Source of the DNA: a bacterium D16-50
GTDB taxonomy: Bacteria > Bacillota > Clostridia > Lachnospirales > Lachnospiraceae
Assembly: GCA_003612485.1 (NCBI GenBank)
Contig: RAZA01000011.1
Span: forward strand, 1 to 64,000
Direction of reading: 5' to 3'
Length of the DNA: 64,000 nt
Shown here: one piece after another, positions 47,390 to 62,153 of the stretch
Position numbering within the stretch: position 1 is the first letter of the stretch
Layout: the number at the start of each line of letters is the position of its first letter
The notes under the pieces: model-generated
What the model saw: only the letters and a program-made list of their open reading frames with translations
Databases searched by the model: none
What the model was told of the DNA's origin: nothing
Position numbers and translations under genes: made by a program

Positions 47390-48469
47390 ATGTGGAAGGG
47401 GCATTATGGCAGGGAGCCTTTTGACCTGCGGCTGACCATGCTGCGGATGCTTTATAAGCTGCCGCTGATTCTGGGGCTTACCCTTCTGGGAAGTCTGGTG
47501 CTGGGGGGAGGATATTATGCAAAGAATGTTCTGCTCCGTGGGGAGAGCATGTACAGCGCTGCCTCCCGCTACCGCATAGAATATGCGGTGGAGGAGGAGA
47601 AGGACGTGGGCACGGTATATATCAACCAGATGAGCTGGAACACTTACCTTCGGTCGGATATGTTTCTGGAAAGTTTGAAAGAAAAACTGACAGATATGTC
47701 AAATGATATAGAACTGGGAGAAATAGATGTTTCCCGGTTGGGGGATTCGCTTGAGGCGGTAGTGGAGTCGGACCTGAGGCTGCTGACTGTCGTGGTCTCC
47801 ACAAAGAGTCCGGAAAGGAGCGTGCAGATTGCCGAGGCTGTGGAGGCGGTCTTGACGGGAGGCTTTGCGGAGGAGATCCGAGAGATCGAAACAATAAAGG
47901 TAATAGAGGCAGGAAATAGCGCGAACGAAGTGGTTCCCGACGTGAGGGTGGGGAGGGCGTTTGCCCTGAGCGCGGTGCTGTCCTGCTTTTTTGCGGTGTT
48001 GATTCTGCTGCTGAAGGAGACCGGGGACGACGGCGTCTGGCTGCCTTCGACTCTGTGGAAGAGGTACGGCCTGAGGGCAGCGGGCACTTTGGAGAGCAAG
48101 GAGCTTCGGGAGAACATGGGGTATTTTTTCTCCCAGAGCAGTGGGGCCGTGGCTGTGTGCGGCTGTCAGGAGGACATAGATACCTCGAAGGTGTTGGAAA
48201 GCCTTAAGCTAAAATGCCCTGAGACGGTAAGCGGGGAGTGGTTTGCAGTGCCGGAAGCCCCCTTCGGTGAAGGCGTATGTCATAAGCTTCGGGAGGCGAA
48301 GGGTATTTTGCTGGTGGTGCGGGCCGGGAGTCATACGGGCAGGCGGCTGGAGCGAGTGCTGGAGTATCTGGAGCAGCAGGACTGTCAGGTGACGGCGGCG
48401 CTGCTCTGGGACGCGGACGAGAGGCTGATTCGCAGATATTATTTTCTCAGGGGCACAGACCGTCCATGA
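47390..48469 (+). CDS. Wzz/CapA-like chain-length protein with P-loop-less kinase-like tail
   Basis: 359 residues; ATG at 47390 behind GGAGGAG with six-base spacing, better than the ATG at 47375. Two membrane segments near residues 27-47 and ~190-207 bracket an extracytoplasmic loop, as in polysaccharide co-polymerases. The C-terminal ~130 residues (AVAVCGCQEDIDTSKVLESLKLKCPE..., ILLVVRAGSHTGRRLERVLEYLEQQDCQVTAALLW) follow the beta-alpha pattern of BY-kinases (CpsD) but have no Walker A, Walker B or Tyr cluster. Probably controls chain length with a degenerate, non-catalytic partner domain fused on. Confidence 0.75.
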   Translation: MWKGHYGREPFDLRLTMLRMLYKLPLILGLTLLGSLVLGGGYYAKNVLLRGESMYSAASRYRIEYAVEEEKDVGTVYINQMSWNTYLRSDMFLESLKEKLTDMSNDIELGEIDVSRLGDSLEAVVESDLRLLTVVVSTKSPERSVQIAEAVEAVLTGGFAEEIREIETIKVIEAGNSANEVVPDVRVGRAFALSAVLSCFFAVLILLLKETGDDGVWLPSTLWKRYGLRAAGTLESKELRENMGYFFSQSSGAVAVCGCQEDIDTSKVLESLKLKCPETVSGEWFAVPEAPFGEGVCHKLREAKGILLVVRAGSHTGRRLERVLEYLEQQDCQVTAALLWDADERLIRRYYFLRGTDRP

Positions 48470-48551
48470 GGACATGAAAAGGCATATCATGGGGCAGGCG
48501 GCTTATGATGGAGGGCATCATAGGAAGGCGGATCATGGGAAAGGATAGTCT

Positions 48552-49337
48552 ATGAAGGTTCAGGTGCTGGCTTCGGTGATGAACGAGGAGCCGAAAGCGC
48601 TGGCAGGCAGGATGATGCTGGAGTCGGACGCGGTGATCATCAATCAGTGCGATAGGTTGGACTATGAGGAGGTAGAGTGGAAAGGGCATCGTCTCAGGTT
48701 CTGCTCCTTTCCGGAGAGAGGAGTGGGCAGGAGCCGCAACGAGGCCATTCTGCGGGCAGATGGGGATATCTGCCTTTTTTCGGATGGGGATATCGTCTAC
48801 GAGCCGGGGTACAGCGAGGCCATTGCGGCGGAATTTATCCGCAGACCTGATGCAGATATGATACTTTTCAATGTTATGGTGGAAGAAGAGCGCCGCACAT
48901 ATTGGATCACAGAGCGAAAGAGGGTTCATTGGTACAACTGCGGCAGGTATGGGGCGGTGAGCTTCGCAGTGCGCAGGGAGAGCCTGCTTTCCTCCAGAGT
49001 AATGTTTTCTCTGCTGTTTGGCGGCGGAGCAAGGTACAGCAACGGGGAGGACAGCCTTTTTCTCAAGGAGTTCATGGACAAGGGGTACAAGGTGTATACA
49101 GCGCCTGTGACCATTGCCAGAGAGATCGGGGGGGATTCCACCTGGTTCAAGGGGTATGACGAGAAATTCTTCCGGGACAGAGGAGTGCTGTACCGGCAGC
49201 TTTACGGCAGGCTCCATGGCCTGATGGCGCTGCGTTTTTTGCTTGCCCATAGGGAGAAGCTTTGTGGGGAAGTGCCGCTTAAGCAGGCTTACCGATGGAT
49301 GATGGGAGCTGGGAAGAACTGTCGGTCTGCGCAATAG
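48552..49337 (+). CDS. Glycosyltransferase-like protein, GT-A fold
   Basis: 261 residues, ATG behind GGGAAAGGA. Starts MKVQVLASVMNEEP and has GVGRSRNEAILRADGDICLFSDGDIVYEPGY, in which SDGD is the likely DxD donor-binding site. No membrane segment. A divergent family 2 transferase working on the exopolysaccharide repeat; sugar unknown. Confidence 0.8.
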   Translation: MKVQVLASVMNEEPKALAGRMMLESDAVIINQCDRLDYEEVEWKGHRLRFCSFPERGVGRSRNEAILRADGDICLFSDGDIVYEPGYSEAIAAEFIRRPDADMILFNVMVEEERRTYWITERKRVHWYNCGRYGAVSFAVRRESLLSSRVMFSLLFGGGARYSNGEDSLFLKEFMDKGYKVYTAPVTIAREIGGDSTWFKGYDEKFFRDRGVLYRQLYGRLHGLMALRFLLAHREKLCGEVPLKQAYRWMMGAGKNCRSAQ

Positions 49338-49392
49338 GGAGATGGCCGGGAGAAAAGGGTATGGCCGATCTGCATGACGGCCGGGAGGCAGT

Positions 49393-50565
49393 ATGGAGTG
49401 GAGCGCTTTGGTCTATGTGGCGCTGGCGGCGGCAGTGGTGGCGCTGGGGCTTTGCGTGGAGAATAAGGAATATGTGCAGGCTGCCGTGGAGGGCGGCAGG
49501 GCGTTTGGATGCCGGCCTACGGAGAGGCGGCAGGCGAGGAATAGGATAGCGGCCATAGGAATCTACTGCCTTTTGACAGGAGTGTCAGCTTGCAGGATCG
49601 CTGTGGGCAATGATTATTGGGTGTACCGGGACAATTTCAAGCTGATCGCACAAGAGCGGCATGTGGCATCGGAATTTGGCTTCAACTATATTGTGAAATG
49701 GCTGCAGGAGCTTTTCGGCTATGACAATTATCTGCCGGTTTTCGCCTTTTTTTCCATAATAACAGTGTTTTTTTTCGTGAAGGCTCTGTTGGACCAAGGG
49801 AGCCGTTTCGCGTTCTCCCTCTACCTGCTGATGATGGGAGGATATTATTTCAACAGCCTTAACTCGGTGAGATACTATCTCGCTCTTGCCATTGCGCTTT
49901 ATTCTATGAAATATGTGCTGCGGGGCGAATATGGGAAATTTCTGCTGTGGATCTTGGCGGGGGCCATGTTCCACAAGTCGATTCTATTGGTGGTTCCGGT
50001 GTATCTTGCCGCCCGGTTTCTGGCGGCGGTTCGTTTAAAAAAATGGCATTATGGGCTGGGGGGGCTTTTTCTTCTGTCTTTGATATTCGGGCAGCAGCTG
50101 TATAGGGAGATTATTTTCTACTTCTACCCATATTATCGGGATTCCATGTTTGACGACGGACAACTGTCCTATGCCAATATACTGAAATGTGTGGGCGCTC
50201 TGGGGCTTTGCGTCCTATGCTGGCGCGGGAGTCTGGCCGGCAAACAGAGGGAGGACGGCGCCGGGAAGACTTTTGGGGGAAGGCTTCTGGCCAGAAGGTT
50301 CTATTTTTTTCTGAACTTGTTCGGACTGGTGGTGTACTGCTGCGGGTCCTTTATTCCCGAAGTGTCCAGAGTGGGGTATTATATGATTGTCTCCCAGATT
50401 TTTCTGCTGCCGGAGTTGCTGGGAGAGATGTCCTGCAGATGGCTGCGCAGGCTCTGCACCGCAGGGGTGGCCGCTGCTTTCGGCGCATATTTTGTCCTGA
50501 TGCTTCGGGGAATGTACGCGGTGGACGTGAGGCTGCTGCCCTATCTGAACTGGATCTTTAATTAG
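49393..50565 (+). CDS. EpsG-like polysaccharide polymerase
   Basis: 390 residues, ATG behind GGGAGG. About ten membrane segments. The EpsG/Wzy-type features are RIAVGNDYWVYRDNF in the first outside loop, GYYFNSLNSVRYYLALAI and AMFHKSILLVVPVYLAAR. EpsG proteins polymerise or help export repeat units outside the membrane. It lies between glycosyltransferase genes with short gaps, in the middle of the locus. Confidence 0.87.
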   Translation: MEWSALVYVALAAAVVALGLCVENKEYVQAAVEGGRAFGCRPTERRQARNRIAAIGIYCLLTGVSACRIAVGNDYWVYRDNFKLIAQERHVASEFGFNYIVKWLQELFGYDNYLPVFAFFSIITVFFFVKALLDQGSRFAFSLYLLMMGGYYFNSLNSVRYYLALAIALYSMKYVLRGEYGKFLLWILAGAMFHKSILLVVPVYLAARFLAAVRLKKWHYGLGGLFLLSLIFGQQLYREIIFYFYPYYRDSMFDDGQLSYANILKCVGALGLCVLCWRGSLAGKQREDGAGKTFGGRLLARRFYFFLNLFGLVVYCCGSFIPEVSRVGYYMIVSQIFLLPELLGEMSCRWLRRLCTAGVAAAFGAYFVLMLRGMYAVDVRLLPYLNWIFN

Positions 50566-50621
50566 CATGAGGGCTTTCAAAAGAAAGAAGGTCTGCGGAA
50601 GGCCGCAGCCGGGAGGAGAGC

Positions 50622-52076
50622 ATGAAGGTATTGTGGCTGTGCAACATGATGCTGCCGGTGATAGCCGGACATATGGGGCAGGAGGGAACCAACAAGGAGG
50701 GCTGGGTCAGCGGCATGGCAGAGGCAGTGCTGGCGGACCAGAGCGGAAACGGCATCGTTCTTTCTGTGGCCTTTCCCATGCAGAGTATGCCGGAGGGAGC
50801 GGAGGGCGCCTGCTGTCAGGGAAGAATATCTCAGGAGGGGATGGCGGCCTTTGATTATTATGGCTTCTTGGAGGATGTTAGAAATCCCGAAAAATATGAT
50901 GAAGGTCTGGAACAAATCCTGAAAAATATCGTCGATAGAGTGAAGCCGGATATCGTGCATTGTTTCGGCACGGAGTATCCTCATACGCTTGCCATGTGCA
51001 GAATTTTTCCGCGCAAGGACAGGCTGCTGTTGGGGCTTCAGGGGCTCTGCACTTTGTATGCGGAGGCATATTTTGCAGATCTGCCCAAAAAGGTCGTAGG
51101 TTCTGTGACCTTCAGGGACTGGCTGAAAAGAGACAGCATCCGGCAGCAGAAGGAAAAGTTCACCTGCCGGGGGCGCATGGAGAGGGAGGCCGTCGCATTG
51201 GCGGGGAATGTCACCGGGCGTACCCAATGGGACAAGGCCGGCGCATATGCCTGGAATCCCGAGGCCAAATATCATTTCATGAACGAAAGCCTTCGGAGGG
51301 AATTTTATGGGCCGGTGTGGCAGAAGGAAAAGACAGTTTCCCATTCTATATTTTTGAGTCAGGGGGATTATCCTCTGAAGGGTCTTCACTATATGCTGCT
51401 TGCGCTGCCAAAGATCCTGAAGGTATATCCTGACGTAAAGGTGTATGTAGCAGGCAACAGCATCGTGGAGTACGGCACCTGGAAGCAGAAGCTGAAGATA
51501 TCCGCCTATGGGAAGTATCTGCGCAGGCTGATTTCCCAGAACTGTCTGGAGGGCAAGGTAGTCTTTCTGGGAAAGCTGGATGCGGGACAGATGCGGGACA
51601 GATATCTTCAGAGCAGCCTTTTCGTGTGCTGCTCCGCCATGGAGAATTCTCCTAACTCTTTGGGAGAGGCCATGCTTTTAGGTATGCCCTGTGTCAGCGG
51701 GGCGGTGGGAGGCATTGCAAGCATCTTCAGAGGCGGAGAGGACGGGATCCTTTATGAGGGGGCTCCGGCGGAGGAGAACGAGAGCCAAGCTGCAGCAGAA
51801 GGCTGCGGTCCGGACAGCCCGGAGGAAAGCAGGGGCGCAGGCAGGGGGAAGAATTCTGAGGGCGGCAAGAGGCCGGAGGGAAACGGAGGGCCAAAAGGAG
51901 CAAAAGGCAGGCTGGAAGCGGTGGCCGGAAATCTTGCAGCGGCTGTCCTTGGGATGTGGCAGGATCCGCAGAAGGCGGGGGAATACTGCCGCAATGCCAG
52001 AAGCCATGCGCTGGAGACCCATGACAGAGAGAAAAATTACCGGAGACTGGTGGAGATATATGAAGAGATCCTTTAA
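50622..52076 (+). CDS. Glycosyltransferase, GT4/GT-B fold
   Basis: 484 residues, ATG behind GGGAGGAGAG. N-terminal Rossmann-like half (MKVLWLCNMMLPVI..., PDIVHCFGTEYPHT) and C-terminal half with SLGEAMLLGMPCVSGAVGGIASIFRGGEDGILYE, the donor-binding E-x7-E region of family 4. A hydrophilic low-complexity insertion (about residues 385-430, 51770-51910) interrupts the C-terminal domain after ILYEGAP. Its end overlaps the next gene by 17 bases. Confidence 0.9.
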   Translation: MKVLWLCNMMLPVIAGHMGQEGTNKEGWVSGMAEAVLADQSGNGIVLSVAFPMQSMPEGAEGACCQGRISQEGMAAFDYYGFLEDVRNPEKYDEGLEQILKNIVDRVKPDIVHCFGTEYPHTLAMCRIFPRKDRLLLGLQGLCTLYAEAYFADLPKKVVGSVTFRDWLKRDSIRQQKEKFTCRGRMEREAVALAGNVTGRTQWDKAGAYAWNPEAKYHFMNESLRREFYGPVWQKEKTVSHSIFLSQGDYPLKGLHYMLLALPKILKVYPDVKVYVAGNSIVEYGTWKQKLKISAYGKYLRRLISQNCLEGKVVFLGKLDAGQMRDRYLQSSLFVCCSAMENSPNSLGEAMLLGMPCVSGAVGGIASIFRGGEDGILYEGAPAEENESQAAAEGCGPDSPEESRGAGRGKNSEGGKRPEGNGGPKGAKGRLEAVAGNLAAAVLGMWQDPQKAGEYCRNARSHALETHDREKNYRRLVEIYEEIL

Positions 52077-53397
52077 CGTAGTGTTTGTGTCCAATTACAT
52101 CAATCATCATCAGATACCCTTCTGCAACGCCATGTTCCGCCTGCTGGAGGGACGCTTTCTTTTTATACAGACAGAGGTCATGGAAGAGGAACGGGTGCGC
52201 ATGGGCTGGCATGAGAAGCAGAGGCCGGCCTATGTGAAGTGTTTCTACGAGGAGGAGGAATTCTGCCGGAAGGAGATCTGCGACTGCGATATTTTGCTGT
52301 TCGGAGGAACGGATGAGGAGTGTTACGTTAGAGAGAGGCTGGAAGCGGGCAGGCCCATTGTGCGGTATAGCGAGAGGCTATACAAGACTGGGCAGTGGAA
52401 GGCCGTGTCCCCCAGAGGACTGAGAAAAAAATATCAGGATCATACCAGATACCGCAGGGGGCCGGTTTACCTACTCTGCTCGGGAGCGTATGTCGCAGGC
52501 GACTTCCGCATTGTGGGGGCCTATCCGGACAAGATGTACTGCTGGGGATATTTCCCGGAGACCAGACGCTATGACTTGGACAAGCTGATGGAGGAGAAGG
52601 GACATAAAGGGGCGGAACCGAGCAAAGACAAGTGCGTCGCTTGGGAGCGGACGGGGGACGGTCGTACCGTGCCCGGACAGCAGGAAAGCGGCGGGGAAAT
52701 AGGGAACGGAAGAACTCCCGCTTTGCTGTGGGCGGCCAGAATGATTCATTGGAAGCATCCGGAGCTGGCGGTGGAGACAGCCAGACATTTAAAGGAGAAG
52801 GGGCTTTCCTTTCACATGAACATCATCGGAGATGGGGAGCTGCGCCCGAGGATGGAGGAGCTGGCAGAGCGCTACGGGCTGGGGGAACTGGTGAGCTTTT
52901 GCGGCTTTCAGTCTCCGGAGGCGGTGCGGCAGTATATGGAAAAGTCGGATATCTTTCTTTTTACCAGCGACAGGCAGGAGGGCTGGGGGGCGGTGGCCAA
53001 TGAGGCCATGAACAGCGGCTGCGCTCTTGTGGCAGGACATATGATCGGTGCGGTTCCCTTTCTGGTGAAAAACGGCGAGAACGGTTTTGTCTATGAGGAG
53101 GGAAAGCCTGAGCAGCTCTTTGCCCTGACGGAGACATTGGTGAGGGACAAGGATCTGTGCAGGAGAATGGGCAGAAGCGCCTATGAGACCATAGTGGGGG
53201 CATGGAACGCGGAATATGCAGCGGAGAGCCTGATTAAGCTGATGGAGAGGATTCTGGAGAGATCCGGGGAGGACGTTAACCTTTGCAGGGCGGAGGACGA
53301 TCTGAGGCTGTTGCCCTGTGCCCCTGCGCCGGTGCTCTGGGAACAGAGCGCCCGCAGACAGACAAGGCGGGAGTGGAAAGAGAGGAATCGGAAATGA
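52060..53397 (+). CDS. Glycosyltransferase, GT4-type
   Basis: 445 residues. ATG at 52060 near GGTGGAG, inside the end of the previous gene. First half VVFVSNYINHHQIPFCNAM...; second half LLWAARMIHWKHPELAVETA, IIGDGELRP, SFCGFQSPEAVRQYM, and the donor site region SDRQEGWGAVANEAMNSGCALVAG. A hydrophilic insertion (about 52600-52720) precedes the second half. The stop overlaps the next ATG. Probably another sugar-adding step of the same polymer. Confidence 0.9.
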   Translation: MKRSFNVVFVSNYINHHQIPFCNAMFRLLEGRFLFIQTEVMEEERVRMGWHEKQRPAYVKCFYEEEEFCRKEICDCDILLFGGTDEECYVRERLEAGRPIVRYSERLYKTGQWKAVSPRGLRKKYQDHTRYRRGPVYLLCSGAYVAGDFRIVGAYPDKMYCWGYFPETRRYDLDKLMEEKGHKGAEPSKDKCVAWERTGDGRTVPGQQESGGEIGNGRTPALLWAARMIHWKHPELAVETARHLKEKGLSFHMNIIGDGELRPRMEELAERYGLGELVSFCGFQSPEAVRQYMEKSDIFLFTSDRQEGWGAVANEAMNSGCALVAGHMIGAVPFLVKNGENGFVYEEGKPEQLFALTETLVRDKDLCRRMGRSAYETIVGAWNAEYAAESLIKLMERILERSGEDVNLCRAEDDLRLLPCAPAPVLWEQSARRQTRREWKERNRK

Positions 53398-54380
53398 GCA
53401 GGAATCCATTGATTACGGTCATTGTGCCGGTCTATAACATTCTTGACTATCTGCCCAGATGCGTGCATTCCATCACTGCCCAGACCTACGGCAATCTTGA
53501 GATCATCTTGGTAGACGACGGATCTACGGACGGCACGGGAGAGCTGTGCGACAGGCTGGCTCAGGAGGATGGGCGTATCAGCGTATACCATAAGGAAAAC
53601 GGAGGCTCTTCCTCCGCGCGGAATCTGGCGCTGGAAAAGGCAGGGGGGGAGTATGTGGGGTTCGTGGACAGCGACGACTATATAGACCCTCATATGTATC
53701 AGCGCCTGATGGAGGCCATAGGGACGTTTCAGGTGTCTGCGGCCCAGATCGGAAGGGACGAGACGGATGAAAAGGGGAATCTTCTGCCTGATATCTGTGT
53801 GCCGCCCAAGGAAGCGGCAGTCATAGACAGCAGCGATTTTTTGAAGGAGCTGCTGCTCCATAGGGGCGACTGCTCTTTCTGCACCAAGCTGATACGGCGT
53901 GAGCTGTTTCCCAAGGATGCATTTCCGGTGGGAAAGCTAAACGAAGACTTTAATCTCCTGATCCGGATGCTGCCCCAAATAGGCAGGCTGGCATCTCTGC
54001 CGGAGCAGGATTATCATGTATTTTATAGAATTGGGAGCAATTCCCGGAAGGCGGAAAAATCTAATTTCTCGCCGGTTTTTGGGGACTGTGTGGACAATGC
54101 GGACATGGTGGGGGAAATTGTAAAGAGAGACTATCCCCGGCTTGGGGACGTGGCGTTTCGGTTCGGCATTTTTCAGCGGCTGGAGTATTTGCTGCATATT
54201 CCCATAGCACAGATGCGGCGGGACAATGCCATGTATCGCAGAATAGTCGCATACATGCGGAAAAACTGGGCCAGATCCATGAGAAATCCGATTTTGACTA
54301 AAAAAAACAAAGTATATCATACCTTATTTGCCATAGCGCCCAAAGGCATCAGGCAGCTGCACAGTGTACTGCGCCGGTGA
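53394..54380 (+). CDS. Glycosyltransferase family 2
   Basis: 328 residues, ATG overlapping the previous stop, with AGAGGAA upstream. GT-A domain: ITVIVPVYNILDYL, LVDDGSTDGTGE, SSSARNLALEKAGGEYVGFVDSDDY with D-x-D as DSDD, followed by a C-terminal helical part. Soluble. Part of the tightly packed run of transferases from 49.4 kb. Confidence 0.93.
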   Translation: MSRNPLITVIVPVYNILDYLPRCVHSITAQTYGNLEIILVDDGSTDGTGELCDRLAQEDGRISVYHKENGGSSSARNLALEKAGGEYVGFVDSDDYIDPHMYQRLMEAIGTFQVSAAQIGRDETDEKGNLLPDICVPPKEAAVIDSSDFLKELLLHRGDCSFCTKLIRRELFPKDAFPVGKLNEDFNLLIRMLPQIGRLASLPEQDYHVFYRIGSNSRKAEKSNFSPVFGDCVDNADMVGEIVKRDYPRLGDVAFRFGIFQRLEYLLHIPIAQMRRDNAMYRRIVAYMRKNWARSMRNPILTKKNKVYHTLFAIAPKGIRQLHSVLRR

Positions 54381-54560
54381 TAGGCGGGGATGAAAAGCGG
54401 GCATACGGTGCAGGCCAAAGCAAGGCCTATAACACCAAAGTAGCAGGGCACAACGGCACAAGAACATGGCGCAGCTTTAGCGCCGGGCGGAAAAGCCGAC
54501 AGACAAGGTCGGAACAAGGGCAGATATGCGGCCTGCCGATACAGCCAGAATCTACCGGTT
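54381..54560 (+). other. GC-rich structured intergenic region
   Basis: Three clear stem-loops lie between the transferase stop and the promoter below: GGTG/CACC (54408-54411, 54434-54437) enclosing AGGCC/GGCCT (54413-54417, 54425-54429); GGCGC/GCGCC (54469-54473, 54481-54485); CCGAC/GTCGG (54497-54501, 54509-54513). None has a T-run. The whole 54381-54724 gap is open in the frame of the next gene, but the encoded residues look non-proteinaceous and a good start lies downstream. Could be a structured RNA or remnant DNA. Confidence 0.4.
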
Positions 54561-54578
54561 TCTTGCGGAATAAATTCA

Positions 54579-54587
54579 TGTTATACT
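54579..54587 (+). promoter_or_regulatory. Extended -10 promoter of the glucosaminidase gene
   Basis: TG at 54579-54580, T, then TATACT (54582-54587): an extended -10 element. -35 region TTTCTT is weak. Leader would be about 130 bases, without a recognisable riboswitch. Confidence 0.55.
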
Positions 54588-54724
54588 GTGGCATGGCGAT
54601 GAGGAAGAGTGAGGGCATTAAACAGAGCGGGCTGTATTTTCACAGTTCGTTTCCCCTGAGACGTACTGGGGGAAGCTTGTTGGAAACAAGAGGGTTTGTT
54701 AGTAGCAGGCGGAGGAGAGTGTTT

Positions 54725-57442
54725 ATGAAGAAGCGTATGAAGCATATATTGGGAGTGGCGCTGGCGGGTATCCTGCTCTGCGCAGATATCCAGTGGCCTG
54801 CGCCCAAGACGGCTGCGGCACAAGAATGGTCTGAGGGGGCCGGTAGAGAGAGCGAGGCGCAGAAGTCGGATTATGGTTTGGACATGCTGCCGTCGGGAGC
54901 GGGCACGCAGGAAGGCGGGGCAGTGTCGGAGACGGGGCAGCCGGGAGCCGGAGCGGGCACACAAGAAAGCGGCACAGCATCGGAGACGGGGCAGCCGGAG
55001 GCAGGAGCGGGCACACAGGAAAGCGGCACAGCATCAGAGACGGGGCAGCCGGGAGCCGGAGCGGGGACGCAGGAAGGCGGGGCAGTGTCGGAGACGGGCC
55101 AGCCGGGAGCCGGAGCGGGCGTGCAGGAAAGCGGTACAGCGCCGGGTATGGGGCAGCCGGGAGCCGGAGCGGGGACGCAGGAGAGCGGGGCAGTGTCGGA
55201 GACGGGCCAGCCGGGAGTCGGAGCGGGCGTGCAGGAAAGCGGTACAGCGCCGGGTATGGGGCAGCCGGGAGCCGGAGCCGACTCTCAGGAGAGCGCTGGG
55301 GCAGCAGGAACGGGTCAGCAGGGCGATGCAGGCGCCGGGAATACATATGGCGCAGGCCGGCGGACTTCGGAGAATGCCGACGAGGAGACGGCCGAATGGA
55401 TCCGGCTGGCAGGGGAGGCTCTGACAGAACTTGCCGCAGAGAGGGACATTCTGGCTACGGTATACCTCAGCGATGAGTATCCCATTCGCCGGGAGCCTTC
55501 TTATGACAGCGAGGCGGCGGTGACTGTTCTCAGCGGTCAGACGGTGAATATTCTGGATATTTATGTGGACGAGGAGCCTCAGGTCTGGGAATACGTGAGA
55601 CTGGACTTTGAGGGGCGGGAGATATACGGCTATGTTCCCAGAACTTATCTGGCCTGTGCGGATTCCCGGTTTCTGGCATGGGAGGAGCAGTATGGACTGA
55701 ATCTGGACGCGGAGACCTATGTTGTAGATGAGAACGGGAATAAGGTCTATTCGGATATTCAACAGTTTCCCGAAAGCTACCGACCGGCGCTTCTGGAGCT
55801 GAAAAAGAAACATCCCAATTGGATATTTGCCAAGCTGAACACCACGCTTGACTGGGAGACGACGATTCGTAACGAGCTGAAGGACGGGAAGAGTCTGGTG
55901 TATTATACCTTTCCGGACTGGGCCAAGGAAGGGCCGTATGACGAAGGCACATGGTACTATGCCTCGGAAGCCGTTCTGAAACAGCAGATGGATCCCCGGA
56001 ACGGCCTCACGGAGAAGGGAATCTTTCAGTTTGAGCAGCTGACCTTCAATAAAGAGTACCATACGGAGGCGGCGGTGAAGGCGTTCCTGAACAACACCTT
56101 TATGCATGACGGGCAGGTGGCGCCGGGGACGGACATGACCTATGCCACGATCTTCTGGGCGATTGCCAAGGAGGAGGGCAGAGAGGTCAGTCCCTTCCAT
56201 CTGGTGGCCAGAGTGATTCAGGAGCAGGGACATCAGGGGACTTCCCCCATGATCTCCGGCACCTGCAAGGGCTACGAGGGATACTATAATTATTTTAACG
56301 TGGGAGCCACGGGAAAAACGCAGGCGGAAGTGCTTAAGACCGGATTGGAGTATGCGAAGAAGCATGGATGGAAGGGGGCATACTATTCCATTCTGGGCGG
56401 CGCGGATTTCATTTCCGCCAATTATATCAAGAAGGGTCAGGACACTTTGTACCTGCAGAAGTTCAATGTAAACCCCAACGGCACCTATCCCGTTTACACC
56501 CACCAGTATATGCAGAATATATCGGCACCCTCTTCGGAAGGCGCAAATATCAAGAAGCTTTACGAGACCGCAGGCGCGCTGGAAAATTCCTTTGTGTTCA
56601 AGATTCCGGTGTATGAAAATATGCCCCCGGAGGCCTGCGGCGAACCCAAGGTGAGCACGAATGTGGTTGTGACCCCGCCCAAGGGCTATGGCGACACTAC
56701 GCTGTGGCTGGACGGCGTGGCCTATACGGGGGAGCTGCGGAACGGCAACCTGATCGTGACAGCGCCTGACGGGAAGGCAAAGACGGCGGTTCTCTATAAA
56801 TATGACGGAAGCGGGATTCCTACGGGCATGTATCTCTGGAGCCTGAGCTATAATGGGACGGCATACACCGCCACACCTGAGACGGGGCTGGAGGATTTGC
56901 TGACCTATCACGGCTTTTCTATCCGGATTACCGGAAAGAGCGGGCTGAGGTTCAAGACGGGCATTTCCGCATCTTTACGGGCAGCGCTTACTGCAGCCGG
57001 AGTAAACGGATATAGGCTGAAGGAATACGGCACTTTGATCATGAACGATGCCAATAGGGCGCAGTATCCAATGATAAAGGGAGGGCAGAAGATTGTGGAA
57101 AGTCTGGCCTATGGTCTGGACTCAAGCGGCAGACTGCAGGATGTGATCTTTGAGACCGTAGCCGGGAGGCATCGGTATACCTCCGTTTTGGTGGGGATAC
57201 CTGCCAGCCAGTACAAGACCCAGTATGCCTTCAGAGGCTATGCGGTGCTGGAGAAGAACGGCACGCAGGTGATTGTATATGGCCCTGTTGTGGTTAGGAA
57301 TATCTATGGTCTGGCGAAGCAGCTGATCGAAAAGGGAAGCTATGAGCCAGGAACAGACGCATATGCCTTTTTGCAGAAGCTGATCAGTGACGCGGATGCC
57401 TTCGATAAGCCTACCGTGAGCAGCGGGAATGCGGCCAGATAA
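54725..57442 (+). CDS. Secreted SH3/glucosaminidase cell-wall hydrolase with tandem repeats
   Basis: 905 residues; ATG at 54725 behind GGAGGAGA. Signal peptide MKKRMKHILGVALAGILLCADI... then eight 18-residue repeats (about 58-201; GAGTQESGTASETGQPGA type). SH3-like domain at about 241-315 (VYLSDEYPIRREPSYDS...). Glucosaminidase-like domain at about 352-635 (ALLELKKKHPNWIFAKL, FQFEQLTF), with probable catalytic E500 in VIQEQGHQG. A C-terminal beta-rich region follows. Likely trims peptidoglycan at the surface; the repeats are a stalk or linker. It ends the transferase run, linking polymer and wall remodelling. Confidence 0.85.
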   Translation: MKKRMKHILGVALAGILLCADIQWPAPKTAAAQEWSEGAGRESEAQKSDYGLDMLPSGAGTQEGGAVSETGQPGAGAGTQESGTASETGQPEAGAGTQESGTASETGQPGAGAGTQEGGAVSETGQPGAGAGVQESGTAPGMGQPGAGAGTQESGAVSETGQPGVGAGVQESGTAPGMGQPGAGADSQESAGAAGTGQQGDAGAGNTYGAGRRTSENADEETAEWIRLAGEALTELAAERDILATVYLSDEYPIRREPSYDSEAAVTVLSGQTVNILDIYVDEEPQVWEYVRLDFEGREIYGYVPRTYLACADSRFLAWEEQYGLNLDAETYVVDENGNKVYSDIQQFPESYRPALLELKKKHPNWIFAKLNTTLDWETTIRNELKDGKSLVYYTFPDWAKEGPYDEGTWYYASEAVLKQQMDPRNGLTEKGIFQFEQLTFNKEYHTEAAVKAFLNNTFMHDGQVAPGTDMTYATIFWAIAKEEGREVSPFHLVARVIQEQGHQGTSPMISGTCKGYEGYYNYFNVGATGKTQAEVLKTGLEYAKKHGWKGAYYSILGGADFISANYIKKGQDTLYLQKFNVNPNGTYPVYTHQYMQNISAPSSEGANIKKLYETAGALENSFVFKIPVYENMPPEACGEPKVSTNVVVTPPKGYGDTTLWLDGVAYTGELRNGNLIVTAPDGKAKTAVLYKYDGSGIPTGMYLWSLSYNGTAYTATPETGLEDLLTYHGFSIRITGKSGLRFKTGISASLRAALTAAGVNGYRLKEYGTLIMNDANRAQYPMIKGGQKIVESLAYGLDSSGRLQDVIFETVAGRHRYTSVLVGIPASQYKTQYAFRGYAVLEKNGTQVIVYGPVVVRNIYGLAKQLIEKGSYEPGTDAYAFLQKLISDADAFDKPTVSSGNAAR
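54896..55327 (+). repeat. Eight tandem 54-bp coding repeats
   Basis: Exactly eight 54-base units (432 bases) encode 18-residue repeats inside the glucosaminidase gene. Units fall into subtypes: TQEGGAVSETGQPGA (1,4, variant 6), TQESGTASETGQP (2,3), VQESGTAPGMGQPGA (5,7) and a divergent last unit. Units 4-5 and 6-7 look like a 108-bp duplication. Near-identical copies imply recent expansion. Confidence 0.95.
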
Positions 57443-57545
57443 GCATCGTAGGAAAGCTTTAGGCGAAAGATTCGGCATAAAGGGAAACTGTGAGGGCAGA
57501 AGGAAACAGAACGGTTTTTCGTTTTTTGGACGAATGGGAGGAATT

Positions 57546-58544
57546 ATGAAAAAGATCAAGTTATTGTATATAGTATTATGCATGGGGGCCGCGGTGGCTC
57601 TTGCAGGCTGCGGGGACGGGACCGATGAGCTGGGGAATTCCGGGGAGAGCGGATTCACCATGGTGGAGCCTACCGACTTGTCGGGGATGGTTTCCGGCAC
57701 AATGGAGGAGTCTCAGGGAAAGGCCCCGGAGGCCGATGGGGCTGCTCAGGGCATAGGGATATCTTATATTACCGGTCAGCTCACGGAGGAAGAGGAGACT
57801 GCGGTGCTGGAGGCTATGAAAACGCTGCACCAGAATCTGGAGATAGAAGATTATATTGGAGAAGGCATCCATCTGGTCAGCAGCGAGGTGTGGTTCGAGA
57901 GTATGGCCGCCCGGCTTTTTGAGGGATGCCGCAGCTATACGCTGGAGGAGGACGGCAAGGTCTTGCTCTCCGTGCAGGTGGGCTATGATATCGCCGGAAA
58001 CCCCTATGCCAATATATGTTATCAGGGAGAGGAAGGAAAGCTCCTGCTTCTGAAGCAGGCTGCCGGGGTGACGTGGCTGATGGAAACCACGGTGGCGGAC
58101 GGAAGGTATGAGGGGGCATTCAATATATGGCAGTTTGACACGGTGCAGGGAAAAATAGAAAGACAGCAGGGAACCTATGCGCAGGGCATACTGGTAGGGG
58201 AATATACCAAATCAGTGTATGACAAGGCGCAAGGGGGGGCTTTCGAGCTGTGGAACAATCGTGAAAACTTCGCCTATGAGACGAATACGATGGTGTATGA
58301 TGAGCAGGGAGAGATTATCCCCACACCCTCGCCTGAGCCTACGCCGCAGCCTACCAAGAGGCCTGCAGTCACGTCCACGCCGACGCCCACACAAGCGCCT
58401 ACGCCGGCTCCTACACCCGAGCCGCCTGCAAAGGAGCCGGATCCGCAACCGGAGCCGGAACCTGAACCTCAGCCTACGCCGGCACCTACACAAGCGCCTA
58501 CGCAAGGGGACAATGATGCGGATTGGTCAGAGGATTTGATGTAA
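57546..58544 (+). CDS. Lipoprotein with Pro/Thr-rich tail, unrecognised
   Basis: 332 residues; ATG at 57546 after GGGAGGAATT. Signal peptide with lipobox ALAGCGD (Cys about residue 22). The middle ~200 residues form a soluble domain with beta-strand-like segments (VLLSVQVGYDIAGNPYANI, GVTWLMETTVADGRYEG, GKIERQQGTYAQG), reminiscent of repetitive antitoxin/MORN-like patterns but not assignable. The C-terminal ~75 residues are PTPTPEP-type low complexity, usual in wall-spanning proteins. Gene lies between the hydrolase and the capsule dehydratase. Confidence 0.7.
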   Translation: MKKIKLLYIVLCMGAAVALAGCGDGTDELGNSGESGFTMVEPTDLSGMVSGTMEESQGKAPEADGAAQGIGISYITGQLTEEEETAVLEAMKTLHQNLEIEDYIGEGIHLVSSEVWFESMAARLFEGCRSYTLEEDGKVLLSVQVGYDIAGNPYANICYQGEEGKLLLLKQAAGVTWLMETTVADGRYEGAFNIWQFDTVQGKIERQQGTYAQGILVGEYTKSVYDKAQGGAFELWNNRENFAYETNTMVYDEQGEIIPTPSPEPTPQPTKRPAVTSTPTPTQAPTPAPTPEPPAKEPDPQPEPEPEPQPTPAPTQAPTQGDNDADWSEDLM

Positions 58545-58557
58545 AGAGCTTTTTCGC

Positions 58558-58586
58558 TTGCGGATTCCCCAAGGATGTTATATACT
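58558..58586 (+). promoter_or_regulatory. Promoter for the CapD-like gene
   Basis: TTGCGG (58558-58563), 17 bases, TATACT (58581-58586), immediately after the lipoprotein stop. Confidence 0.55.
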
Positions 58587-58623
58587 GAGTGCAATGCTTG
58601 TTTGCAAGGGGAGGACGGCCTTG

Positions 58624-60489
58624 ATGAAAAAGGAGAGAAGTTTCCTGAGGATACCTATGAACCGTATTATCGCGCTGGTGCTGATGGACATAATGGCGAT
58701 ACTGATATCTTCGTTCGCTGCTTTATATCTGCGCTTTGAATTCAGCTTCAGGGAGATTCCCAAGGAGTATCTGAACCGGTATGAGAGGATCATTCCATAT
58801 ACGGTGGGCTTCACGCTGCTTTTCTTCTTGATCTGGAGGCTGTACAAAAGCGTGTGGCGGTATGCCAGCGCTACGGAATTGCTCAATATCTCCTTTGCTA
58901 CCAGCAGCGCGGCTCTGGCTCAGATGATCCTATGTCATTTCACCGGATGGAATATGCCCAGAAGCTACCACGTGCTTTTTTGGATTTTTTTGTTCGGCAT
59001 GACATGCGTGATCAGGTTCAGTTACCGTATTCTGCGGATCCTGAATTCCAAGAGGCAGAACATTTTGGGTGGGAAGCCCGGAGTGCATGTGATGATCATC
59101 GGGGCGGGCGCGGCGGCAAACATGATCTTGAAGGAGATAGAGGTCAGCCAGTACATCAATCTGAAGGTTAGATGCATCATCGATGATCAGCCGGGCTGTC
59201 ACGGCAAGCTTCTGCGGGGGATTCCTATCGTAGGGGGCAGGGACAAGATTGTGGACGCGGCGGCGCAGTATAGAATTGATGAGATTATCTTCGCAATTCC
59301 TTCCGCCAGCAGGCAGACCCGGAAGGAAATACTGGATATCTGCAAGGAGACGGGATGTAAGCTTCGGACCATACCGGGAACCTACCAGCTGATCAATGGG
59401 GAGGTCTCGGTGTCTGCCTTGAAGGAAGTGGAGATAGAAGATCTGCTGGGCCGGGAGCCGATCAGGACGAATATAGACGAGATCATAGATTATGTAAGCA
59501 ATTCCGTGGTTATGGTTACGGGAGGCGGAGGCTCTATCGGCAGTGAGCTTTGCCGGCAGATCGCCGGACATCATCCGAAGCGATTGGTTATCGTGGACAT
59601 CTATGAGAATAATGCCTATGATATTCAGCAGGAGCTGCGCAGGAAATATCCGGGGCTGGATCTGGTGGTGCTGATCGCTTCGGTTCGCAATACCAACCGC
59701 ATGGAGCAGATATTTGAGACCTACCGCCCGGAGATTGTCTACCATGCGGCGGCCCATAAGCATGTTCCGCTGATGGAGGACAGTCCCAATGAGGCGGTGA
59801 AAAACAATGTGCTTGGAACCTGGAAGGTAGTGCAGGCGGCGGACAAATGGAAGGTTCGGCGGTTCGTGCTGATCTCCACGGACAAGGCGGTGAACCCCAC
59901 CAATATCATGGGGGCTACTAAGCGTATCTGTGAGATGATCATACAGACATACAACAACCACTCCGAAACGGAGTTTGTAGCGGTGCGCTTCGGCAATGTG
60001 CTGGGCAGCAACGGCAGCGTGATTCCGCTGTTCAAGCGTCAGATTGCTGAGGGAGGTCCCGTGACGGTAACGGACGCCAATATGGTGCGGTATTTTATGA
60101 CCATCCCGGAGGCGGTCTCTCTGGTGCTGCAGGCGGGAGCCTATGCCAAGGGCGGCGAGATCTTCGTGCTGGACATGGGTGAGCCGGTGAAAATCATGGA
60201 GCTGGCCCAGAACCTGATCAAGCTGTCAGGCTTTAGGGTGGGCGAGGACATTGAAATCAAGATCACGGGACTGCGCCCAGGGGAGAAGCTGTACGAGGAG
60301 ATGCTGATGGCGGAAGAGGGCATGAAGGACACCGCCAACAAGATGATCCATATCGGCCAGCCCATCCAGATTGACGAGGAGAAATTCATGAAGCAGCTGG
60401 AGGAGCTGAAGGAATATGTGGTGAGAGAGCCGGAGGACATCCGGGAATATGTGAGAAAGATCGCGCCTACATATGTGCCGAAGGAGTAG
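58624..60489 (+). CDS. Nucleoside-diphosphate-sugar 4,6-dehydratase (CapD/PglF-type)
   Basis: 621 residues; ATG at 58624 with AAGGGGAGGA upstream. Four N-terminal membrane segments, a first Rossmann-like domain (VMIIGAGAAA near 155), then the catalytic SDR domain: VMVTGGGGSIGSEL near 297, AAAHKHVPLMED, and STDKAVNPTN near 418 with the TDK catalytic triad of this group. Makes UDP-4-keto-6-deoxy-HexNAc, the precursor of bacillosamine or related sugars. It can supply a modified amino sugar for the polymer built by the upstream genes. Confidence 0.94.
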   Translation: MKKERSFLRIPMNRIIALVLMDIMAILISSFAALYLRFEFSFREIPKEYLNRYERIIPYTVGFTLLFFLIWRLYKSVWRYASATELLNISFATSSAALAQMILCHFTGWNMPRSYHVLFWIFLFGMTCVIRFSYRILRILNSKRQNILGGKPGVHVMIIGAGAAANMILKEIEVSQYINLKVRCIIDDQPGCHGKLLRGIPIVGGRDKIVDAAAQYRIDEIIFAIPSASRQTRKEILDICKETGCKLRTIPGTYQLINGEVSVSALKEVEIEDLLGREPIRTNIDEIIDYVSNSVVMVTGGGGSIGSELCRQIAGHHPKRLVIVDIYENNAYDIQQELRRKYPGLDLVVLIASVRNTNRMEQIFETYRPEIVYHAAAHKHVPLMEDSPNEAVKNNVLGTWKVVQAADKWKVRRFVLISTDKAVNPTNIMGATKRICEMIIQTYNNHSETEFVAVRFGNVLGSNGSVIPLFKRQIAEGGPVTVTDANMVRYFMTIPEAVSLVLQAGAYAKGGEIFVLDMGEPVKIMELAQNLIKLSGFRVGEDIEIKITGLRPGEKLYEEMLMAEEGMKDTANKMIHIGQPIQIDEEKFMKQLEELKEYVVREPEDIREYVRKIAPTYVPKE

Positions 60490-60575
60490 GCGGGGATGCG
60501 GATATGGCATGGGGGGAAACCAAGAAAAATCGTAGCAAGAAATGAAATGAGTATATAAAGAATATGGAAGAGAAG

Positions 60576-60633
60576 ACACCCTCTGGATTTATGGCTGCAT
60601 AGGAACGCAGTCTTGAATTCAGAGGGTGTTTGT
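60576..60633 (+). terminator. Terminator-like long stem-loop closing the polysaccharide locus
   Basis: ACACCCTCTG (60576-60585) pairs with CAGAGGGTGT (60620-60629), followed by TTGTT. The loop holds a smaller GCTGC/GCAG-type pairing. The T-run is weak but the ten-pair stem is strong. Confidence 0.65.
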
Positions 60634-60714
60634 TGGCATCGCCGAAAAGTTCTTGGCAGGAATGTTCAGAATGAAGGATGGAGGAATGCAGATTGAAAAA
60701 TAATCAAACAAGCT

Positions 60715-60744
60715 ATTGTACTACATTCAAAAGAATGATACAAT
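60715..60744 (+). promoter_or_regulatory. Promoter overlapped by an imperfect palindrome
   Basis: TTGTAC (60716-60721), 17 bases, TACAAT (60739-60744). The same interval is an imperfect inverted repeat: ATTGTA (60715-60720) with ATTC on the left arm, AAAA centre, GAAT and TACAAT on the right. The overlap with both promoter boxes suggests a repressor operator. Confidence 0.55.
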
Positions 60745-60782
60745 AGTCGAAAAAGGGATGTCCGAGGGGAATGTAAAGGATA

Positions 60783-62153
60783 ATGAGAATTTATGGACGA
60801 AATTTGGATAGGAATAAGGGCAGTGATTGTCTCGATGTCCGTGGCCCAAATTCCAAGTATAAAAAATATAAGGATCCCGTTGGCAGAAGTAGAAGGGAGA
60901 TGCTCGGAAGTAGTATAAGGTATGGGAGCATATTCTGTGCTTGGAGCATGTTGATCTTTTTTGCGGTTCAGGTGGATAATGAATATCTAAGCCAATGCAA
61001 AGGATGTTTTTCGGGACTTGTTCATAGGTTTGTGGTATTAGGGCATGAATGGGGGATCAGTCATGATTTCTTATATGATACGCTGGGGGGATATTCAAGT
61101 GTTCTGCTGACGGTGGTAGGAATGATCGTGACCGGATGGCTGAGCCTTTCGGATCGTTTGGAGAAGAAGGTGTATGGAATTCGCAGAAAGGAGTTGTTTG
61201 GAAGGAATTGGCTGGGGAGATGGCTGGTGGATTCTTTTATAGGTGTGTTCACTACCCCTGCGTGGATGATGTACGCGCTGATTCGTAAATACTGCTTTAC
61301 GGCCTATTTCATTATGGTATTGATATTTGTTCAATTTTTGGTAAGCAACCTATTGCTTGCGATGACTTATAGCAGAGGCGGGGATCTCAGAAGGCTTATC
61401 AAAAAAATAAAACGTAGCGGGACCAAATCTAAGGGAGCGACCGGCTTTGAGACTTTTGGTGAATTGCTGGATAGGATCGAGGCATCCTTGGAGGAAAATA
61501 CGGACTGGAATGAAGTCAATGCCCTTTTTCTGTCTTGTGTAAGGAAGGTAGGACGGAAAAAAGGGGAGCAGAAGCTGTATAGGATCAGCAGGGATTTTGT
61601 GACAAGGGTCTATGCTAAAAGAAATGAAGATAGGATAGTGGATTTAGCGGTGCTGTATATTAAGGAAGTGGATAAGGGCTTTGAGGCGGGTGGTGAGAAA
61701 GGGACAAAGCTGGTGTATTGGGCATTGTTGGATAGTCTATATCAAAATTGCGAGGAAGAGCAGATAGCGTCTTATCTGGGCAGGCTGACGGATATGCTTT
61801 CTTTGAACGATGGGTTATATGGTATTGAGGTAAATTTTCCGGTAGTTTGGATTGAAGAAATATTTGCTATGGTGGCTGTGCAGACGGAATACTGGCTGCA
61901 GAAAAATAATAGTAGATTGAGGTGTTTTGGGGAAACCTTCGGTAAGATTATACAGATGGGAGAAATGGCGTATGTAGATGAAGGAAGGGGAAAGATGCTT
62001 TTGGAATTCATCGATGTTCGCCAATTTGCGCTTAGGGAAGTGGATGGAACAATGCGGCAGTGTTTTTTCCTTTTGAGGGACAGATACCTGAAGGCAGAGA
62101 CGCCAGATCATCTAGATAGTCTGCTCTGGGGCATTTGGGAACTGCAACAATGA
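60783..62153 (+). CDS. Four-TM membrane protein with helical cytoplasmic domain, unrecognised
   Basis: 456 residues, ATG with AAAGGA upstream. Basic N-terminus (residues 20-45), membrane segments at about 46-64, 102-123, 151-168 and 172-195, then ~260 residues of soluble, alpha-helical, charged sequence (FGELLDRIEASLEENTDW, LVYWALLDSLYQNCEEEQIASYLGRL). The end overlaps or abuts the next gene. Codons are A+T-richer than in the preceding locus, consistent with a separate, perhaps acquired, module. No family recognised; a membrane sensor or anchor for the downstream putative metalloprotein is possible. Confidence 0.75.
   Translation: MRIYGRNLDRNKGSDCLDVRGPNSKYKKYKDPVGRSRREMLGSSIRYGSIFCAWSMLIFFAVQVDNEYLSQCKGCFSGLVHRFVVLGHEWGISHDFLYDTLGGYSSVLLTVVGMIVTGWLSLSDRLEKKVYGIRRKELFGRNWLGRWLVDSFIGVFTTPAWMMYALIRKYCFTAYFIMVLIFVQFLVSNLLLAMTYSRGGDLRRLIKKIKRSGTKSKGATGFETFGELLDRIEASLEENTDWNEVNALFLSCVRKVGRKKGEQKLYRISRDFVTRVYAKRNEDRIVDLAVLYIKEVDKGFEAGGEKGTKLVYWALLDSLYQNCEEEQIASYLGRLTDMLSLNDGLYGIEVNFPVVWIEEIFAMVAVQTEYWLQKNNSRLRCFGETFGKIIQMGEMAYVDEGRGKMLLEFIDVRQFALREVDGTMRQCFFLLRDRYLKAETPDHLDSLLWGIWELQQ

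Follow-up and report, generated by a model that had tools for sequence, protein, structure and literature searches.

An in-frame tandem-repeat tail of variable length on a predicted secreted GH73-like glucosaminidase from a Lachnospiraceae polysaccharide locus

A short tandem array near the start of a wall hydrolase gene probably encodes, in the reading preferred here, a free, disordered and acidic tail on a secreted GH73-type N-acetylglucosaminidase belonging to a polysaccharide locus. The tail would change length by whole units under weak constraint and may restrain or modulate how the enzyme reaches the wall. This reading, taken as a whole, is held at about even confidence. The array was found in a 64,000-nucleotide stretch of contig RAZA01000011.1 from bacterium D16-50 (Lachnospiraceae), here called the window.

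The repeat array

54896..55327, + strand: 54-bp tandem array, seven close units and a degenerate eighth; 18-residue unit, e.g. GAGTQESGTASETGQPGA
55058..55273, + strand: duplicated 108-bp block, units 4-5 and 6-7, 105 of 108 bases identical

Tandem Repeats Finder detects the array at two periods, 54 (positions 54896-55278, 7.1 copies, score 493) and 108 (54896-55323, 4.0 copies, score 475). When the 432 bases of the array were codon-shuffled 200 times, the top score was 73. Units 1 to 7 differ from each other at 0-13 of 54 bases, and unit 8 differs from the others at 18-22. An initial annotation of this DNA had described eight near-identical repeats; the array and its place stand, but the number of near-identical units is seven. 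That annotation also had the units keep the frame exactly, and all of them are indeed read in the frame set by the ATG at 54725. A further suggestion, that units 4-5 and 6-7 arose by a 108-bp duplication, is supported, as a recent event, by comparison of the dimers: units 4-5 and 6-7 show 3 mismatches in 108 bases, and the two other dimer comparisons made show 19 and 22. Unit 5 is identical to unit 7.

Within 54701-55500, exact direct repeats reach at most 60 bp. Since ordinary reads can resolve a repeat of this length, collapse or expansion of the array during assembly appears unlikely. Three matches to the 54-bp unit were listed in a search of the genome, every one inside the array itself, and no G-quadruplex motif occurs on either strand of the array. 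The array is open in four of the six frames. Because at least four open frames were also obtained in 45 of 500 codon shuffles, the long open reading frames at 54723-55346 (-), 55034-56911 (-) and 54873-55424 (+) were set aside as by-products of the 73% G+C. Taken alone, the array is a coding minisatellite of the ordinary sort.

The encoded protein

54725..57442, + strand: gene for a predicted secreted GH73-like (SagB-like) glucosaminidase of 905 residues, ATG start with GAGGAGA just upstream
54725..54820, + strand: predicted signal peptide, residues 1-32, cleavage predicted between KTAAA and QEW by a home-made motif rule
54821..55378, + strand: low-complexity N-terminal tail, 186 residues, net charge -19, 27% Gly, 18% Ser+Thr, 8% hydrophobic
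55484..55651, + strand: SH3_3-like domain, residues 254-309, 18.8 bits against a Pfam cut-off of 27
55943..56569, + strand: GH73/SagB-like catalytic domain, residues 407-615, NCBIfam E 6.5e-17, Foldseek to SagB E 1.2e-11
56222..56224, + strand: codon of Glu500, which lines up with the AtlE and SagB catalytic glutamate and is invariant among all 35 orthologues aligned
56621..57406, + strand: C-terminal domain without a Pfam or NCBIfam name, beta-rich in the model

Pfam gives a single match to the 905-residue protein, SH3_3, which is below threshold here and reaches E 0.1 or better in 24 of 35 orthologues. PF01832, which we take to be the Pfam mark of a GH73-type glucosaminidase, has no match, and the SagB model NF052642 scores 61.6 bits, below its curated cut-off of 425. 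Membership of the GH73 fold is supported by a structure model. An AlphaFold model from an alignment of 35 orthologues covers residues 219-905 with a mean pLDDT of 88.3; the disorder of the tail is predicted from its composition. The 11 best Foldseek matches to the model are structures of SagB, Atl, AtlE and a C. perfringens autolysin (E 1.2e-11 to 1.3e-8, target TM 0.58-0.74, rmsd 3.8-7.1).

By alignment, Glu500 corresponds to the catalytic glutamate of SagB and AtlE; its column holds Ala in 4pi8, the E138A catalytic mutant of AtlE. The protein would be expected to act as an N-acetylglucosaminidase. In staphylococcal enzymes the substrate motif is YA(S/T)D, as given in the available part of PMC7170848. 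At the aligned place the window's protein has YMQN, which is invariant in 35 of 35 orthologues, and for this reason the protein is named GH73-like and divergent.

For the C-terminal domain the best fold match is to cytokine-receptor fibronectin domains (Z 8.0 over 97 residues), a middling value, and Foldseek TM-scores are at most 0.35 among the 50 matches listed. Given such middling matches, the fold is left unnamed. The domain is 38-67% identical to the window's copy in other species. It (56621-57406 in the window, 1878-2657 in L115) also ends a 1029-residue protein of the same genome that matches Peptidase_M6, at 44% identity. The domain thus seems to be a module that secreted proteins of these bacteria have in common.

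Tail length among species

A genus set of 101 genomes, the window's own included, contained 72 with a match at E 0.001, some of them through the C-terminal domain alone. In a set of 138 genomes, the first 642 residues were matched at E 1e-150 in 46. The set analysed consists of 37 non-redundant full-length orthologues from one genome per species, repeated loci of one genome being counted once; 48 loci were excluded in which the match ends short of the C-terminal domain or begins late. Among the genomes searched, the nearest match to the window's protein is about 68-69% identical. Tail length was taken from the home-made cleavage rule. A first version of the rule (35 genes) shifts single tail lengths by up to about 21 residues, and the number of tails of at least 80 residues is seven under both versions. 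Several of the excluded loci, with a different C-terminal part, also bear low-complexity tails, for example a long run of the 7-residue EGTQQGG in L035.

Tails range from 0 to 198 residues in the 37 orthologues. Twenty-five have 15 residues or fewer and seven have at least 80. In a tree built from the protein outside the tail, all seven long tails fall in one clade of 18 rows with support 100/99, and a minimum of three changes on that tree is needed for tails of at least 80 residues, as for arrays of at least three copies. Six of the 37 genes have such an array in the tail (4,068 bp in total), against one of the 37 with an array in the remainder of the gene (75,249 bp; L134). Thirteen of the 14 tail array periods listed are divisible by three (24, 30, 36, 42, 54, 60 and 108); the exception is a low-scoring row of period 28 in L002, where the main period is 60.

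Close relatives can differ widely in the tail. For example, L002 and L003 are 94% identical outside it and have tails of 168 and 128 residues, the 40-residue gap corresponding to two 20-residue units, and L005 and L007 (91% identical) have 136 and 37 residues, a gap of 99. The proposal in the initial annotation that length could vary thus holds between species. The sequence GEDPGEPADGG is present three times in L003 and absent from L002, which suggests homogenisation within the array. Equal short tails are found in the close pairs L016/L019, L008/L010 and L009/L011 (96, 90 and 88% identical). Between the window and L004 the tails are similar, with 0 of 500 column permutations reaching the score. 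The tails of the sisters L004 and L006 are no more alike than controls, and 442 of 500 permutations reach the score. The tail therefore looks like a fast-changing, dispensable part, a type for which other wall enzymes already provide examples.

Such turnover of unit sequence and length between close species, and the many orthologues nearly devoid of a tail, are also what would be expected if the repeats were neutral, that is, tolerated and expanding or contracting by slippage or recombination while the enzyme is unaffected. This is quite possible, though less probable than the preferred reading. Two observations weigh on the other side. The seven long tails are all acidic (net charge -19 to -36) and all poor in hydrophobic residues (4-16%), a common character that selection against misfolding alone could also explain. 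In units 1 to 7 of the window, 21 columns vary, 11 at codon position 3, six at position 2 and four at position 1. This bias hints at an amino-acid constraint not called for in a tail that is wholly free, and the third-position excess could likewise reflect selection against misfolding alone.

A free or an anchored end

A small-x-Ala motif follows the hydrophobic core in all 37 orthologues (AxA in 19, VxA in 14, TxA in two and SxA in two). The same motif is held by 59% of windows of equal length from the folded part, so the count is weaker evidence than a trained predictor would give. Fourteen orthologues have tails of five residues or fewer, and in these the motif lies no more than a few residues from the folded core. 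The window's protein has no lipobox, no LPXTG and no hydrophobic C-terminus. Among the 37 orthologues a lipobox pattern occurs in one (L039) and an LPxT[GAS] pattern in one (L022, inside the conserved part), and a hydrophobic C-terminus fit for a membrane segment in none. Since the repeats follow the predicted cleavage site in a protein with no visible anchor, the tail most likely has a free N-terminal end once the signal peptide is cleaved. The initial annotation spoke of a surface hydrolase; the hydrolase type agrees with the domain matches and the protein is predicted to be secreted, but no wall or membrane anchor was found that would attach it to the surface.

It had also taken the repeats for a stalk setting how far the catalytic domain reaches. 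For this the hydrophobic segment would have to stay in the membrane. The tail does lie between that segment and the catalytic core and does vary in length, stalks of variable length are a known class, the periscope proteins (PMC8201768, from the part of the paper available), and the cleavage rule is weak alone with its 59% background. An anchored stalk is nevertheless improbable. The cleavage-like motif precedes the repeats, it is present in every orthologue and adjoins the folded core where the tail is nearly missing, the two anchor patterns are confined to single orthologues other than the window's protein, and the place of the supposed stalk measures 15 residues or fewer in 25 of 37 orthologues.

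The polysaccharide locus

49393..54380, + strand: upstream polysaccharide genes, EpsG, two GT4-type and one GT2-type glycosyltransferase, conserved
57429..60489, + strand: downstream genes, a putative lipoprotein with a Pro/Thr/Glu-rich tail, then a Polysacc_synt_2 protein, present in many orthologous loci

The wall hydrolase regularly forms part of a polysaccharide locus. The order EpsG-GT4-GT4-GT2-glucosaminidase-lipoprotein-Polysacc_synt_2 (49393-60489 in the window) is found again in many orthologous loci; the last protein is presumably PglF/CapD-like. Upstream counts refer to the 35 loci with at least 1,300 bp of upstream sequence. A GT2 gene lies upstream on the same strand in 32 of these, including the window, and within 800 bp in 27. 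The two GT4 genes are present in 26 and 25 loci and EpsG in 21. GT2 is missing from L011 and L020 despite about 4.9 kb of flank, and is not seen in L133, where the flank is only 1.4 kb; in L008, L010, L028, L030 and L021 it lies further upstream with the Polysacc_synt_2 gene in between. The lipoprotein gene is present in 28 and the Polysacc_synt_2 gene in 20 of the 35 loci that have at least 700 bp of downstream sequence. Several flanks are too short to contain every gene counted here.

The putative lipoprotein gene (57429-58544) adjoins that of the hydrolase; its product has no Pfam match and a low-complexity C-terminal tail rich in Pro, Thr, Glu and Gln. A 456-residue open reading frame at 60783-62153, after the Polysacc_synt_2 gene, has no Pfam match at E 0.01. 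Rfam gave nothing up to E 1 in 48000-62000, and no sigma-70-like promoter was found in 54300-54800, where 0.5 would be expected. A link to phage was considered and rejected: five pattern matches were obtained in viral contigs, none coding for a relative.

Glycosyltransferase genes so close to the hydrolase might modify its tail, making it a platform for glycosylation. A precedent is E. faecalis AtlA, whose N-terminal domain is glycosylated in a manner that requires GtfAB (PMC5542707, available text). But 17 of the 27 loci with GT2 within 800 bp upstream have tails of 15 residues or fewer, which argues that the neighbouring glycosyltransferases are not there for the tail, and this role is very unlikely.

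A possible role for the tail

In the preferred reading, a free tail that damps the enzyme, the array would grow and shrink by whole in-frame units, through recombination or slippage. Its length and sequence would be nearly free, with frame, acidity and low hydrophobicity kept. After cleavage of the signal peptide, the tail would hang off the core formed by the SH3, GH73 and C-terminal domains. There it may damp or tune access to the wall in the manner of the disordered N-terminal domain of AtlA, possibly until proteases trim it. According to the available portion of PMC5542707, removal of the AtlA domain raised septum cleavage more than 10-fold in vitro, whereas truncation changed activity on whole sacculi only about twofold, from 252 to 488 units. 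The analogy is loose, the 18% Ser+Thr of the tail being well under the 28% Thr and 12% Ser of the AtlA domain (PMC5542707, same portion). Because 25 of the 37 orthologues are nearly or wholly without a tail, it may do nothing at all; the damping tail is favoured, by analogy, with the neutral tail as a close rival.

A bolder extension, which we think unlikely, is that one Lachnospiraceae clade has built disordered acidic tails from units of fast turnover (unrelated in one sister pair), with tail length as a quickly adjustable brake that would match wall opening to the polymer of the locus. YMQN would then point to the polymer, or its attachment site, as the target.

The orthologues form a natural series in which one enzyme carries tails of 0 to about 200 residues while gene and locus are otherwise conserved. 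Such a series would allow the effect of repeat variation in autolysins that lack an anchor to be tested directly.

Comparison with known systems

Among the open-access matches listed for a Lachnospiraceae EpsG-glucosaminidase locus, for disordered tandem-repeat tails on hydrolases and for Acetatifactor autolysins, the two periscope papers alone were on point.

E. faecalis AtlA shares the general plan of a signal peptide, an N-terminal domain predicted to be disordered, a glucosaminidase domain and a C-terminal part (PMC5542707, as far as the accessible text goes). It differs in ending with LysM repeats and in an N-terminal domain far richer in Thr and Ser; the window's protein has instead an SH3-like domain, an unnamed C-terminal domain and a tandem array rich in Gly, Gln and Glu. 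S. aureus SagB is the best match of the catalytic domain in both sequence and fold, yet its model scores 61.6 against 425 bits and the staphylococcal YA(S/T)D (PMC7170848, part available) is YMQN here.

The other closest analogue, beside AtlA, is E. faecalis EpaU, an autolysin encoded inside a wall-polysaccharide cluster. It too has a disordered N-terminal segment, rich in Ser and Thr, and its C-terminal domain binds the wall (PMC13343894, in the sections available). The EpaU catalytic domain belongs to GH25 instead of GH73. The binding domain of EpaU also varies greatly between strains, in the same sections, whereas the window's C-terminal domain is kept among species at 38-67% identity.

Periscope proteins resemble the present case in that highly similar DNA repeats alter the length of surface or secreted proteins (PMC9704523, available part). 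That 2022 review includes repeat-variable autolysins that lack wall-attachment motifs and, in the same part, describes the role of their repeat variation as undefined. The repeats of the class are long; the units here are highly similar yet short, at 54 bp. Wall-attached members have folded stalk repeats of about 50-165 residues (PMC9704523, same part), whereas the window's protein has no visible anchor and carries a low-complexity 18-residue unit after a cleavage-like site.
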